The position numbers were made by a program, and so were the translations under genes. This document shows positions 21,679 to 42,309 of a stretch of 44,572 nucleotides of DNA, one piece after another. Below the pieces are notes generated by a model. The model made no database searches. It had not been told where the DNA came from and worked only from the letters and a program-made list of their open reading frames with translations. The DNA is from Gemmatimonadota bacterium (GTDB lineage Bacteria > Gemmatimonadota > Gemmatimonadetes > Gemmatimonadales > Gemmatimonadaceae): contig JACREJ010000086.1 in the NCBI GenBank assembly GCA_016218305.1, forward strand, positions 1-44,572. The letters are read 5' to 3'. Positions within the stretch are counted from its first letter, which is position 1. The number at the start of each line of letters is the position of its first letter.

Positions 21679-22026
21679 GTGACCGGCGTTCCCGACTCGA
21701 CACGGGTCGCGCTCGACGGCTTGCGCGCGCTGGGCGGCGACGGCCTCGTCCGCCAGATGGTTTCCATTTTCATCGATCACTCCGCCGGCCGGATTGCCGC
21801 ACTGCGCAGCGCGCTCGACGCCGGCGACCTGCAGGGCGCGGCGGGCGCGGCCCATACGCTGAAGGGCAGTTCCCGACAGCTGGGCCTGACCGCCATGGCC
21901 GATGCCTGCCTCGCGCTCGAGCAGGCCTGCAAGGGCGGCGACGCCGCATCGGCGCAAACGCTCGCGGCCGCCGTGCACGATGCGTACACGGCGGCCGCGG
22001 AACAGCTGCGCGCGGCTACGGCTTAG
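21679..22026 (+). CDS. Orphan histidine phosphotransfer (HPt) protein
   Basis: About 115 residues form a lone HPt four-helix bundle. The phospho-accepting His59 sits in AAHTLKGSSRQLG, the classic HPt signature, preceded by LVRQMVSIFIDHSAGRIAALRSALDAGD. Such proteins pass phosphate between receiver domains of hybrid kinases and response regulators. No kinase or regulator is nearby, so the partners are elsewhere. The start is uncertain: GTG 21643 would give a 127-residue form, but a likely -10 box lies directly on top of it, so GTG 21679 is preferred. The 3' end overlaps the tail of the DUF2723 gene by 11 bp, tail to tail. Confidence 0.85.
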   Translation: MTGVPDSTRVALDGLRALGGDGLVRQMVSIFIDHSAGRIAALRSALDAGDLQGAAGAAHTLKGSSRQLGLTAMADACLALEQACKGGDAASAQTLAAAVHDAYTAAAEQLRAATA

Positions 22027-24274
22027 CTGGCACCGCCGTCTTCACCGCCGAGTCGCCGGCCGTGACCGGCGGCGGGACTGCGCCGCTGAAGAGGTCGCCG
22101 AGCCCCGTGGCGCGCGCCACCTTCATCGCGTCGCCGATCGCCTTCTCGGAGCCCGTCCGGTCGCCCTGTGCGCTGAGCGCCTCCGCGAGCACGTAGTTGG
22201 TGGAGACGTAGAGGTAGGGAATGCCGACCGACGCGCGGTCCACCCACTTGTTCTTGCGCACGAGGGCCGCCGGCGCCCGGAACTCGGCGGCGAGCGACTG
22301 CATGCGGCCCACGTCCACCCAGCCCTCGCCCTGGACCTGCACGAGGCCCGGCCCGCCCGTGATCGAGTCGGGCAGCAGCTTCCGCGACAGCCCCTGCGTG
22401 AGCACGTAGTTGCCCAGCCCGAGCTCAAACGCATAGCCGCCCGACGTGCGGCTGAAGTAGACGGAGCGCTTGCCGTCCTGGATCATCTTCAGCACGAAGA
22501 TGTCGGCACGCGCGAGGAAGCGCGGCTGGATGACGGCGCGGATGTTGCCCGCCACGAACAGCTGTGGCTGCGACAGTTCCTGCCCCAGCGGCACCGCGTC
22601 CGCCTCGGCCATCGTCATGTTCATCGGCGGACCCGACGGCTTCGGCCAGGCCTTGCCGCGGTACGCGGACGGGCCCTTTGCCGTGTCGTAGTCGAAGACG
22701 GGGCGGCGCAGCAGCTGCCGCGTGTACCAGTCCGTGTTCAGCAGCGACGTGTTCGCCACCACCACGTCCTTGCGTACGCCCAGCACTTCCTGCGCGTACC
22801 ACAGGGGGAACGTGTCGTTGTCGCCGACGGTGACGAGCACGCCGTACGGCTCGACGCTGTTCAGCAGGTCAATGGCGAAATCGCCGGTGTCGGTCTCGCC
22901 GCGCCGCGACGAAGCCTCCCAGTTGCCGAAGAGCGGCACGAACGCGAGGAGCAGGACGGGCGACGTGAGCGCCCAGCCGCGGGTCGTCGGCAGCTCGAGC
23001 GTCTCGCCGCCAAGCTGCGTCTTGGTGCTGCCAACCAAGGCCGCGAGGGACTCCCAGACGAACGTGAGGCCCAGCGCCGCCCAGACCGACCACGCCGAGA
23101 AGCTCCAGAGATAGAAGTAGTCACGGTCGCGCACTTCGCGCGGCACGCTGTCCCCAAGTTCCGGCGCCTGCGAGTAGCCGTACTTGAAATTCATGTAGTA
23201 GATGAGGAGCAGCGTCAGCGTGAACATCAGCGGCCCGAAGAAGGCGAAACTTCGGGGGTCGCGGCGGTAGTGCACCCAGCCGCCGAGAATGCCGAGCACG
23301 AGGAAGATCGCGGCCAGCGATCCCTGCAGCCCCGGCCGCACGCCGTCGACGTCGCGCAGCCACTGCCACTTGAAGTACAGCCACCACATGCCGATCTGCG
23401 CGCCGAGCGGCGCCTGCCGCTCGCTCAGTTCCGGCTTGCCGTACTGGCCGCGGTTGAAGTTGTACATGAACGCGTCGTACGTCCCCTTGGAGAAGGTGCA
23501 CGACAGCTTGAGTCCGTCACGACAGGCTGTGGGCTCGCCTTCATTGATGGCGGGGAAGTGCGCGGCGCGAATGGGCTGCGTGGCGAACGGCGTGCCGCCG
23601 AGCACCAGCGCTCCGGCACAGGCGAGCAGGAGGCGCCAGCGGGTGATGGTGCGCGGCCGGCGGATCAGCACGGCGAGGCCCGCCGCCGGCGCGGCCATCA
23701 TGCCGGCCATGTGGTTGGAGTATCCCAGGCCGCACACGTAGGCAATCAGGACGAGAATGCGGTCGGCGGCCGGACCATCCGGGTCATCGCACCAGCGCAC
23801 CGTCAGCCAGGCCGTGATGGCCATGCCGGCGAGCGACAGGGTGTAGACCTTCTCATTCACGACCGACTGCGACCAGACGGTGAACGCGGTGGCGCCGATG
23901 AGCACGGCGAGCGCGCCGCCCGCGATGCGCTGCCAGCGCTGCGCGAACCAGCCGACCAGCACGCGCTCGGTGATCAGGAACCACATCGCCGCCGAAACGG
24001 CGCTCGACACCGCGGCGAGCAGGTTGATGCGCATCGCCACGCTGGGCGCGATGGGAAGAATCGAGAACACCCGCCCGATGAGCACGAAGAACGGGTTCCC
24101 GGGCGGGTGTGGAATGCCCAGGGTGTACGCGGCCGCGATGTACTCGCTCGTGTCCCACATCGCCGTCTCCGGGGAGAGCGTGATGAGGTAGAGCAGGAAG
24201 ACCGCCACGCCCGCAATGCCGGCGGCGAGGTAGGACGGTCGGGTGTCGAGTTCAGCGGCTGCGGTCGTCGCCAT
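22016..24274 (-). CDS. DUF2723 multi-spanning membrane protein, probable glycosyltransferase
   Basis: The 752-residue protein begins with a DUF2723 domain: an early membrane helix (YLAAGIAGVAVFLLYLITLS), then TAMWDTSEYIAAAYTLGIPHPPGNPFFVLIG, which matches the acidic loop typical of GT-C fold mannosyltransferase-like enzymes, and around ten further helices to residue ~450. The remaining ~300 residues form a soluble tail (VLVTVGDNDTFPLWYAQEVLGV, VANTSLLNTDWYTRQL). The animal relative TMEM260 is a protein O-mannosyltransferase; bacterial members are thought to be lipid-linked sugar transferases, but the substrate here is unknown. It lies 211 nt after purH, behind a large inverted repeat, and may have its own promoter near TATATT (24313-24318, minus strand). 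Confidence 0.85.
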   Translation of the reverse strand: MATTAAAELDTRPSYLAAGIAGVAVFLLYLITLSPETAMWDTSEYIAAAYTLGIPHPPGNPFFVLIGRVFSILPIAPSVAMRINLLAAVSSAVSAAMWFLITERVLVGWFAQRWQRIAGGALAVLIGATAFTVWSQSVVNEKVYTLSLAGMAITAWLTVRWCDDPDGPAADRILVLIAYVCGLGYSNHMAGMMAAPAAGLAVLIRRPRTITRWRLLLACAGALVLGGTPFATQPIRAAHFPAINEGEPTACRDGLKLSCTFSKGTYDAFMYNFNRGQYGKPELSERQAPLGAQIGMWWLYFKWQWLRDVDGVRPGLQGSLAAIFLVLGILGGWVHYRRDPRSFAFFGPLMFTLTLLLIYYMNFKYGYSQAPELGDSVPREVRDRDYFYLWSFSAWSVWAALGLTFVWESLAALVGSTKTQLGGETLELPTTRGWALTSPVLLLAFVPLFGNWEASSRRGETDTGDFAIDLLNSVEPYGVLVTVGDNDTFPLWYAQEVLGVRKDVVVANTSLLNTDWYTRQLLRRPVFDYDTAKGPSAYRGKAWPKPSGPPMNMTMAEADAVPLGQELSQPQLFVAGNIRAVIQPRFLARADIFVLKMIQDGKRSVYFSRTSGGYAFELGLGNYVLTQGLSRKLLPDSITGGPGLVQVQGEGWVDVGRMQSLAAEFRAPAALVRKNKWVDRASVGIPYLYVSTNYVLAEALSAQGDRTGSEKAIGDAMKVARATGLGDLFSGAVPPPVTAGDSAVKTAVPAKP

Positions 24275-24320
24275 TGGGCTCAGAGCGAGGGAAGAGTTCG
24301 GAATAACCCATCAATATAGC

Positions 24321-24474
24321 GGGGAGGGGGAGGGGTGCAGGGGCTTGTCAGGGGGAGGAGTGGAGCGAGGGGAGGAGGGAGAGCAGGCATTCCCGCGATC
24401 GCATGGCCGCCTCTCTCAACCCTCGTCCCTCCACTCCTCCCCCTCCTTAACCCCTGCACGCCTCCTCTACCCCA
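24321..24474. repeat. Long imperfect inverted repeat (G-rich / C-rich arms) between purH and the DUF2723 gene
   Basis: The arms are about 24321-24372 and 24420-24474, separated by a ~47 nt loop. The left arm (plus strand) is G-rich and contains GTGCAGGGG and GGGGGAGGAGTGGAG; the right arm carries their complements in the same order with a few changes. In the direction of transcription (leftward) the purine arm comes just after the purH stop and the pyrimidine arm just before the DUF2723 leader. The first 23 bases of the left arm have four runs of at least four Gs (24321-24343), a G-quadruplex motif on the plus strand. It could end purH transcripts or regulate the next gene. No T-run follows, so it is not a simple intrinsic terminator. 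Confidence 0.75.
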
Positions 24475-24485
24475 GCTGTCCTGTC

Positions 24486-26018
24486 TTAGTGCCTGAACAA
24501 TCGCTGCCCCGTAAACACCATCGCGATCCCGTGCTCATCGGCGGCCGCGATGACCTCGGCGTCGCGGACGGAGCCGCCGGGCTGGACGATGGCCGTCACG
24601 CCCGCTGACGCCGCATGGTCGATGCTGTCGCGGAACGGGAAGAAGGCGTCGGAACCCAGTGCCGCGCCGGCGGTGGCGTGCCCCGTGCCCTTGGCCTTGT
24701 GCGCCGCGAGGAAGGCGGCGTCCACGCGCGACATCTGGCCGGCGCCGATGCCGATGGTCGCGCCGTCGCGGGCGAGCACGATGGCATTCGACTTGACGCA
24801 CGCGACGGCACGCCAGGCAAAGAGCAGGTCGCGCCGCTCGGCATCCGTAGGCGCGCGCTTCGTCACGACCTTCCACGCCGTGTCGTCGATGCAGCTCGGC
24901 GCCTTCTCCTGCACCAGCACGCCGCCGCGGACGCGCTTCACGTCGAGCGCGCCGGGGCGCTCGGCGGCGCGTCCCTCGAGCACGCGCAGGTTCTTCTTGG
25001 CGCCGAGGATCTCCACCGCCTCCGGGGCGAAGGACGGCGCGACGATGCACTCCACGAAGAGCGACGAGATGGCCTGGGCGACAACGGCGTCCACGGCGAC
25101 CGTGAATGCGATGATCGAGCCGAACGCCGAGACTGGATCGCAGGCCAGTGCCTTCTGGTAGGCCTCGAGCGGCGTGGCGCCGGTGGCGAGGCCGCATGGC
25201 GTCGTGTGCTTGACGATGGCGCAGGCGCACTCGCCGGCGAACGGATCCACCGCGAGCAGCGCGCCCTCGAGGTCGAGGAAGTTGTTAAAGCTCAGTTCCT
25301 TGCCGCCCTTCTGAACGAGGCCAGCCAGCCCCGCGCCCCGCGCATCCACGTAGAAGGCCGCCTTCTGGTGCGGATTCTCGCCGTAGCGCAGCGTCTGGGC
25401 GCGCTCGAACGCCAAGGTCATGCGCTGCGGGAAGCGATCGCCGGCCTGCTCGGCGAACCACGCGGCAATGGCGCTGTCGTACGCCGCGGTGTGCGCGTAC
25501 ACCTTGGCGGCCAGCTCGCGGCGCAGCGGCAGCTGGTCGCCACCCGCGGCGAGGGCGTCGAGCACGCGACCGTAATCGGCGGGATCCACCACCACGGTCA
25601 CGGCCGCGAAGTTCTTGGCGGCCGAGCGAAGCATGGACGGGCCGCCGATGTCGATCTGCTCGATCACGTCCTCGGGGGCGACGCCCGCCTTCGCCGCGGT
25701 CTCGCGGAACGGGTAGAGGTTCACCACGACGACGTCGATGGGCGCGATGCCGTGCTCGGCAATGACGGCCATGTGCTCGGGGAGGTCGCGGCGGGCGAGC
25801 AGCCCGCCATGCACCACCGGGTGGAGCGTCTTCACCCGGCCGTCGAGCATCTCGGGAAAGCCGGTGACTTCGCTGATGTCGCGCACGGCGAGGCCGGCGT
25901 CACGCAGCGCCTTCGCGGTGCCACCGGTGGAAATGAGCCCGAATCCGCGGTCGGTGAGGCCACGGGCGAAGTCGACGACGCCGGACTTGTCGGAGACGCT
26001 TAGGAGTGCGAGAGGCAT
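24486..26018 (-). CDS. purH: Bifunctional AICAR transformylase / IMP cyclohydrolase
   Basis: The 510-residue enzyme performs the last two steps of purine synthesis: formylation of AICAR by 10-formyl-THF and ring closure to IMP. The N-terminal MGS-like cyclohydrolase domain (ALLSVSDKSGVVDFARGL, ISTGGTAKALRDAG, VTGFPEMLDGRVKTLHP) is followed by the transformylase domain with AIVKHTTPCGLATG (active-site Lys and His), RYGENPHQKAAFY, DSIDHAA and IVQPGGSVRD. I chose ATG 26018 (MPLALLSVSD); upstream frame is repeat sequence. Length is normal. It follows purN by 64 nt made of a short-period repeat. Confidence 0.97.
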   Translation of the reverse strand: MPLALLSVSDKSGVVDFARGLTDRGFGLISTGGTAKALRDAGLAVRDISEVTGFPEMLDGRVKTLHPVVHGGLLARRDLPEHMAVIAEHGIAPIDVVVVNLYPFRETAAKAGVAPEDVIEQIDIGGPSMLRSAAKNFAAVTVVVDPADYGRVLDALAAGGDQLPLRRELAAKVYAHTAAYDSAIAAWFAEQAGDRFPQRMTLAFERAQTLRYGENPHQKAAFYVDARGAGLAGLVQKGGKELSFNNFLDLEGALLAVDPFAGECACAIVKHTTPCGLATGATPLEAYQKALACDPVSAFGSIIAFTVAVDAVVAQAISSLFVECIVAPSFAPEAVEILGAKKNLRVLEGRAAERPGALDVKRVRGGVLVQEKAPSCIDDTAWKVVTKRAPTDAERRDLLFAWRAVACVKSNAIVLARDGATIGIGAGQMSRVDAAFLAAHKAKGTGHATAGAALGSDAFFPFRDSIDHAASAGVTAIVQPGGSVRDAEVIAAADEHGIAMVFTGQRLFRH

Positions 26019-40836: not shown

Positions 40837-40882
40837 TGGGAGATGGGAGATGGGAGATGGGAGATGGGAGATGGGAGATGGG
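40835..40882 (-). repeat. Purine arm: seven GATGGG units with 7-bp period
   Basis: Six perfect GATGGGA heptamers plus a partial seventh unit start inside the stop codon of the preceding gene. Read on the minus strand the units are TCCCATC, a rotation of RTCTNCC (ATCTCCC). GGG runs are spaced by exactly 4 nt, which fits the G3N4G3N4G3N4G3 quadruplex pattern on the plus strand. It is complementary to 40928-40962. Confidence 0.93.
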
Positions 40883-40927
40883 CGTGGCTCCCACCGATCT
40901 GCCGTCACCAACGCACCTCTCGAACGT

Positions 40928-40962
40928 ATCTCCCATCTCCCACCTCCCATCTCCCATCTGTC
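40928..40962 (+). repeat. Pyrimidine arm: five RTCTNCC-type heptamers ending 4 nt before a start codon
   Basis: Three ATCTCCC units, one ACCTCCC and one ATCTGTC stand in register and are followed by TCTC and the acyl-CoA dehydrogenase ATG. They can pair with the purine arm at 40835-40882 around a 45 nt loop, with one or two mismatches in about 30 bp. There is no Shine-Dalgarno sequence. Confidence 0.9.
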
Positions 40963-42128: not shown

Positions 42129-42156
42129 AGCGGAAGTCGGAGGGCGGACGGCAGAC
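42129..42156 (-). repeat. Purine arm of a heptamer repeat pair after the acyl-CoA dehydrogenase stop
   Basis: Four contiguous 7-bp units begin 1 nt after the stop codon. On the minus strand they read GTCTGCC, GTCCGCC, then two more diverged units. They match the pyrimidine block at 42310-42344 across a ~153 nt interval. Confidence 0.75.
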
Positions 42157-42309
42157 GGCTGGGCTTCCACCGGTGGGGAATGCCGGACAACGAGGCTCCC
42201 TGTTCCCTGATCCGCCGCTGGCGACTTCCATCGCATCATCAACGTAGATTTCAGGCAGTATGCAGGTGCAGGGCAGCCGCCGTCCGCGCCGCCGCCAACC
42301 GGGGCGCGC
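42157..42309 (+). promoter_or_regulatory. Leader of the leucine dehydrogenase gene, possible promoter
   Basis: This stretch between the two repeat arms has no reading frame of note. TAGATT (42245-42250), the same hexamer as before the HPt gene, is a possible -10 box in the most AT-rich part, and GGCAGTATGC follows. No -35 box is clear. Confidence 0.25.

Follow-up and report, generated by a model that had tools for sequence, protein, structure and literature searches.

The spacer between purH and the downstream DUF2723 gene in the window, the whole stretch of 44,572 nucleotides of Gemmatimonadaceae DNA that was analysed, is largely filled by a long inverted repeat belonging to a dispersed family, here named F5. 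Repeats of this kind are a real and genome-wide feature, which extends beyond the genus. They may best be explained as REP-like dispersed long hairpins at the 3' ends of genes, which would fold in the RNA and close the upstream transcript, a reading in which we place moderate confidence. The features of the window concerned are:

24318-24477, (-) strand: whole inverted repeat, F5 copy, in the purH-DUF2723 spacer (repeat search, fold, gapped alignment)
24401-24477, (-) strand: purine-rich 5' arm, starting 8 nt past the purH stop codon (gapped alignment)
24397-24400, (-) strand: terminal loop of 4 nt (fold and gapped alignment)
24318-24396, (-) strand: pyrimidine-rich 3' arm (gapped alignment)
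24312-24318, (-) strand: TATATTG box immediately 3' of the pyrimidine arm (by eye)
24486-26018, (-) strand: purH (PF01808, PF02142), ending in the stop codon that immediately precedes the hairpin (Pfam)
22016-24274, (-) strand: downstream gene, PF11028 (DUF2723/TMEM260-like) (Pfam)
40841-40959, (+) strand: second inverted repeat, with heptamer words GGGAGAT (repeat search, fold, alignment)
42131-42301, (+) strand: third repeat, weaker but with the same layout: 23/27 pairs, a 112-nt loop and a score of 18 (repeat search and alignment)

The inverted repeat (24318-24477) occupies most of the purH-DUF2723 spacer (24275-24485). The repeat search of the window delimited arms of 68 nt (24321-24388/24406-24473; 74% matched), while in the gapped alignment of 24401-24477 with 24318-24396 59 of 74 positions are paired around a 4-nt loop. 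The RNA of the (-) strand, as transcribed, is predicted to fold with -122.1 kcal/mol (z -6.66), which was equalled by none of 200 shuffles. The long inverted repeat described in the earlier note is thus real; the loop of ~47 nt ascribed to it is not, as the centre also base-pairs, down to a tetraloop. The second repeat (the 40835 repeat of that note) lies between genes for a 3-hydroxyacyl-CoA dehydrogenase and an acyl-CoA dehydrogenase (Pfam), with 45 of 55 positions matched between its arms (40841-40894/40901-40959, gapped alignment) and a predicted RNA fold of -81.7 kcal/mol (z -7.17). Its heptamer arms (97% matched) are separated by 48 nt which are themselves partly paired, and the proposal that the two repeats have nearly equal loops is not borne out by the repeat search or by either RNA fold. 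Their common layout, with the purine arm 3' of the stop codon (here that of purH) and the pyrimidine arm towards the next gene (here DUF2723), was correctly recognised. The spacer orthologous to that of the third repeat contains a repeat with a score of at least 20 in four of the eight relatives compared (G002, G006, G008 and G010).

PF11028 is presumably the family formerly called DUF2723; the Pfam copy used names it TMEM260-like. The TATATTG box belongs to a TATATTnAnnGGTTA-like type which, besides 24312-24318, occurs, as judged by eye, at the same place in the orthologous purH spacers L002, L003, L004, L006 and L014, where the words of the arms are exchanged and the box is kept, and it is probably the promoter of the DUF2723 gene. 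A promoter box following the hairpin is not a general rule, being found in 4/27, 1/7 and 1/4 tandem spacers of the three genomes surveyed below, as against 6%, 4% and 7% in letter shuffles. The purH matches in G004, G010 and G003 (L003, L004, L008) include in-frame stops within the aligned stretch, which perhaps lie upstream of the true start or reflect assembly errors. A known Rfam RNA can be dismissed, with no match in the window at gathering score, and the purH-DUF2723 spacer had no match in the phage collection.

As a DNA query, the purH repeat gave 86 matches in its own genome (G000; 2.0 Mb, 116 contigs, 92% complete), in at least 40 separate places as counted from the list, a lower bound since 40 of 58 candidates were scored. 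The check for further such spacers suggested in the earlier note thus returned many, and since the purH repeat copies a dispersed family, a separate duplication-inversion in each spacer, as had been envisaged, is not the best account of it. The same query yielded 16 (G006), 6, 5 and 1 matches in four of ten congeners and none in the other six. Twenty-nine F5 copies were read with their flanks: 25 are localised in tandem, two in convergent and two in divergent spacers, the repeat starts 0-8 nt past the stop codon in 22 of the 27 non-divergent copies, and no target duplication was seen by eye in the flanks. Within a sampled third of G000 (667 kb), 66 spacers contain repeats scoring at least 24, 44 of them assigned to seven word families and 22 unassigned, while in G001 14 of 24 strong repeats belong to the single family CACGGAG. 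The word of the second repeat, GGGAGATG, taken three times in succession, was matched 202 times in G000 with up to two mismatches, as against three matches for the reversed control. With up to one mismatch it occurred 117 times in G000, 31 times in one other genome and 0-7 times in each of the remaining 148 of the 150 genomes searched. For the reversed control there was no match in G000, whereas G006 had 13 and G004 had 10; it is thus not clean everywhere, probably since reversal yields another word of the same type. The arms show a heptamer periodicity in G000 and G084, but not in G001.

The common design of the repeats was surveyed in the 40-600 nt spacers of G000, G001 and G084 (667, 480 and 400 kb), where gene calls, as elsewhere in the analysis, came from our own codon-usage script rather than from annotation (longest ORFs for loci of the second phylum), so that some spacers may be miscalled. 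Strong repeats were found for 29 of 86 spacers in the convergent class, for 57 of 367 in the tandem and for 19 of 159 in the divergent class. The excess of convergent over divergent spacers (pooled p 8e-5) is evident in G001 (8e-4) and G084 (0.0015) but not in G000 (0.26), in which 15 of 65 divergent spacers have strong repeats and no depletion is seen; an excess of tandem over divergent spacers is confined to G001 (p 0.04; G000 0.60, G084 1). Dinucleotide shuffles of the G000 spacers reached the score in 72/1880 tandem, 14/380 convergent and 22/650 divergent cases. In the Burkholderia control, repeats were found in 1/33 tandem, 0/4 convergent and 0/8 divergent spacers; the Enterobacter control, four spacers from 80 kb, carries no weight.

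The repeats have a median length of 141 nt, and in tandem and convergent spacers the purine-rich arm precedes the pyrimidine-rich one almost without exception (44:1 in G000, n=51; 15:0 in G001, n=23; 8:0 in G084, n=12; the rest intermediate). As both strands of an inverted repeat read the same, this order holds for transcription from either side. Weaker hairpins (score 13-18) are mixed in polarity (14:5 in G000, 11:11 in G001), although the polarity reaches beyond the long repeats in G084, where this band stands at 11:0. The first arm begins within 5 nt of the stop codon in 38 and within 10 nt in 52 of the 86 repeats (letter-shuffled spacers: 7% and 11%). Nearness to stop codons by itself has also been reported for hairpin terminators at large, in passages of PMC8355165. 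A canonical terminator with a U tract is rejected: the stable hairpin after the stop is present, and TTTT follows the second arm in 0/35, 0/15 and 0/6 tails of the three genomes (0/56), the Geomesophilobacter set of this tail and spacer survey counting some spacers twice (L016 overlaps L233). Integron attC sites carry R-box ends of the form RYYYAAC / GTTRRRY; such ends occur in none of the 86 repeats, and this candidate was likewise discarded. A purine bias of coding strands is described as a genomic sign linked to runaway transcription in the portion of PMC13323073 consulted, and the coding strands here are purine-neutral (0.50), so that runaway transcription is rejected as the cause of the stop adjacency.

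The purH spacers orthologous to that of the window also carry hairpins, mostly built of other words, F5 being shared by G006. In the acyl-CoA dehydrogenase spacer, the congeners contain arrays of ATGGGAG, ATGGTAG, ATGGCGG, ACGGTGG, ACGGTAG or ACGGGAG, in register with the stop codon as judged by eye, and G004 has a spacer of 9 nt without a repeat. When every 5' arm was scored against every 3' arm, own arms matched far better than swapped ones at the purH spacer (26.7 vs 11.1; nine genomes) and at the acyl-CoA dehydrogenase spacer (20.9 vs 11.3; eight genomes), both with p 5e-5, the floor of the permutation test. The own partner scored highest in eight of the nine rows and in five of the eight, respectively. 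Repeats scoring below 15 were left out, so that these values represent nine of the 12 purH spacers (without G002, L010 and L013) and eight of the nine acyl-CoA dehydrogenase spacers (without G004; the set does not include the G002 spacer). Among the 29 F5 copies, all with a repeat score of at least 16 and the family word in an arm, own arms scored 33.1 and swapped ones 31.3 (p 0.014). The corresponding own and cross values are 33.6/31.0 for F3, 29.4/25.7 for F1 and 32.4/29.0 for F2, family F6 of G001 has no excess (42.3 vs 43.4), and F7 stands apart (31.2 vs 21.7). As own F5 arms are barely above swapped ones, the arm match at orthologous sites is mainly attributable to replacement of the whole element. 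The covariation of arms among relatives, for which a test had been suggested, is upheld as an arm-specific match at two orthologous spacers, but within F5 it scarcely rises above swapped arms; local compensatory change appears weak, and selection on pairing since dispersal would be weak or undetected.

Of the orthologous tandem pairs in which G000 has a repeat (score at least 20), the relative has one in 18/31, and where G000 has none, the relative has one in 4/83 (4/28 for spacers of at least 40 nt); restricted to spacers of at least 80 nt, the pair test gave p 0.06. Grouped into 25 tandem loci, all six with a G000 repeat (score at least 20) have one in at least one relative, a result that concerns six loci, two of whose repeats fall outside the recognised word families. 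Of the 19 loci without a G000 repeat, one has a repeat in a relative (1/7 for spacers of at least 40 nt, p 0.005; 1/4 for at least 80 nt, p 0.03). Whole elements also come and go: at the locus L213:16187-16498, G000 and G006 have the same family and G005 another, while the spacers of G001 and G004 are short, without a repeat and without a stable hairpin (z 0.1 and 0.6). At L213:9338-9498, G001 and G005 instead have GC hairpins of ~14 and ~15 bp (z -4.1 and -5.4). Among 13 pairs with no long repeat in the relative, its spacer has a fold below z -2 in four, compared with two among 22 pairs in which both members are without one.

Once transcribed, the purH repeat would form a hairpin of ~60 bp a few nucleotides past the stop codon, which could stop RNA polymerase without a U tract or, alternatively, shield the 3' terminus that Rho and exonucleases leave. 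The polarity may have a part in this: with the pyrimidine arm made last, a weaker rPy:dPu hybrid would lie in RNA polymerase at the time when a very strong hairpin folds behind the enzyme. With the RNA:DNA hybrid parameters used, the hybrid of the 3' arm is weaker than that of the 5' arm in all 29 F5 copies (-12.6 vs -15.2 kcal/mol per 9 bp) and in 46/51, 21/23 and 10/12 repeats of G000, G001 and G084. The F5 3' arm hybrid is still far stronger than that of a U run (-1.6 kcal/mol per 9 bp), and the weak-hybrid arm supports at most a contribution to termination. Taken together, the placement, the polarity, the missing U tract and the ordinary hairpins at one site would fit an RNA-level 3'-end signal, and a U-less terminator and a protector of Rho-made ends would fit the data alike. 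The earlier note's view that the design argues for function gains support from position and polarity, short of proof. Should the hairpins end transcripts, they would represent one means of U-tract-free termination in high-GC bacteria, and the purine-first order could then be tested as a design principle.

Selfish or neutral hairpins of the REP/MITE type, persisting at the least harmful sites (just past genes, at a distance from promoters) and serving no host function, would account for several of these observations; this main rival is possible, though not likely. Family distribution is species-restricted (F5 occupies about 40 places in G000, with six of ten congeners lacking a match; GGGAGATG at 117, 31 and 0-7 matches), one word family is patchy across three phyla, spacers without an element exist, arm matching is weak beyond the family consensus and the divergent spacers of G000 also contain repeats. 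Such persistence is less easily reconciled with an orthologous spacer that holds different families, with short hairpins that replace a long one, or with stop adjacency to within a few nucleotides; further, no Y1 transposase was found in G000 (92% complete) and no target duplication was seen by eye. By analogy with REP elements, which passages of PMC3733652 describe as similarly placed, selfish spread, perhaps with later use, would nonetheless be a fair rival.

The palindromes might instead be a by-product of mutation, made and corrected by slippage of short words and hairpin-templated strand switching without selection. The heptamer periodicity of the G000 and G084 arms (G001 lacks it), the array that, judged by eye, keeps register with the stop codon in the acyl-CoA dehydrogenase spacer and the F7 arms (31.2 vs 21.7) point in this direction, but the process by itself predicts neither the purine-first polarity nor the placement at gene ends, and the match of F5, F3 and F6 arms to their own partner is about as good as to the arms of other copies, making it very unlikely in our estimation. 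Even less credence is given to a role at the level of DNA, through pairs of uptake words, protein binding or cruciform extrusion, even though the species-specific words resemble uptake-sequence dialects (PMC3630211) and paired uptake sequences form terminator hairpins in Neisseria (in passages of PMC1852404).

Beyond the genus, the CACCACRGAGRCACRGAG word (up to one mismatch) was detected in 29 of 200 Gemmatimonadota genomes, with 78 matches in G001, 57 in G002 and 54 in a genome of another family, and nine control matches overall. Two further phyla have it as well: 33 of 198 genomes in that of Geomesophilobacter (Thermodesulfobacteriota, NCBI), with up to 56 matches (control 2), and, by word counts, 34 of 299 in that of a Burkholderia, with up to 56 matches (control 4). 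Thirteen of 26 Thermodesulfobacteriota loci have a spacer inverted repeat (score at least 20) at the word, that of L307 not being built of it; four of these repeats begin no more than 12 nt from the preceding gene, and three are in spacers called divergent, on crude gene calls. The CACGGAG family is abundant in G061 (another family, 54 matches) and G060 (another genus, 47), with 0-4 matches in three further genomes sampled from the genus of G061, and its horizontal spread is possible. Other purine-word repeats (GGGGCTAGGG, GGTGAGGGG and ACGTGAA) adjoin stop codons in L016, L036, L055 and G161, which belong to Geomesophilobacter, to Thiobacillus and to a betaproteobacterial record; G161 has 26 matches for the word and also 15 for its reversed control. 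A bolder form of the preferred reading, which we regard as unlikely, is that of mobile 3'-end elements crossing phyla, with a shared vocabulary of short words and the purine arm first, which would settle after stops and act as bidirectional terminators free of a U tract through the weak rPy:dPu hybrid, lineages swapping the word but keeping the hairpin. That three phyla have one word family in common prompts the question of which agent transports it, and the replacement of word families at fixed gene ends constitutes a natural experiment separating structure from sequence.

No report on transcription termination in Gemmatimonadota was found in the open-access texts searched, nor any related report for six of the repeat words in full text, and papers on intergenic inverted repeats or hairpins made no mention of Gemmatimonas among the matches listed; a long, untagged, purine-first, REP-like hairpin of gene ends was likewise not found described in the open-access texts searched. 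One close likeness is to REP/REPIN elements, which, in passages of PMC3733652, are dispersed palindromes of mostly tandem and convergent spacers, occur in lineage-specific families and often adjoin or even supply stop codons, and F5 is itself a dispersed extragenic palindrome. REP/REPIN elements differ in their length of 20-40 nt, as against a median of 141 nt and purine-first arms here. A tagged REP with its Y1 transposase is rejected, as the GTAG/CGTC tag is not enriched at repeat ends (12/86 vs 363/1836 random) and a REP-associated Y1 transposase was not found in G000 (92% complete), three of the 13 genomes searched having one, including G006. The uptake-sequence terminators of Neisseria and Pasteurellaceae, in the account of PMC1852404 as far as consulted, similarly form hairpins from a species word and its complement and are richest tail-to-tail, whereas several words per genome, long arms and no T tail are found here. 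Passages on 'I-shaped' intrinsic terminators without a poly-U tail (PMC12288462) and on hairpin clusters (PMC8355165) describe GC-rich hairpins without a U tract, most placed near the stop codon; the repeats here are likewise GC-rich and close to the stop, but much longer, grouped in dispersed families and strongly purine-first. In the P6b stem of the Nostoc trnL intron, as described in parts of PMC4476775, complementary 7-nt repeats flank the stem and motif classes are replaced by lineage while the structure is kept, as here, although that stem is intronic and restricted to a single locus.
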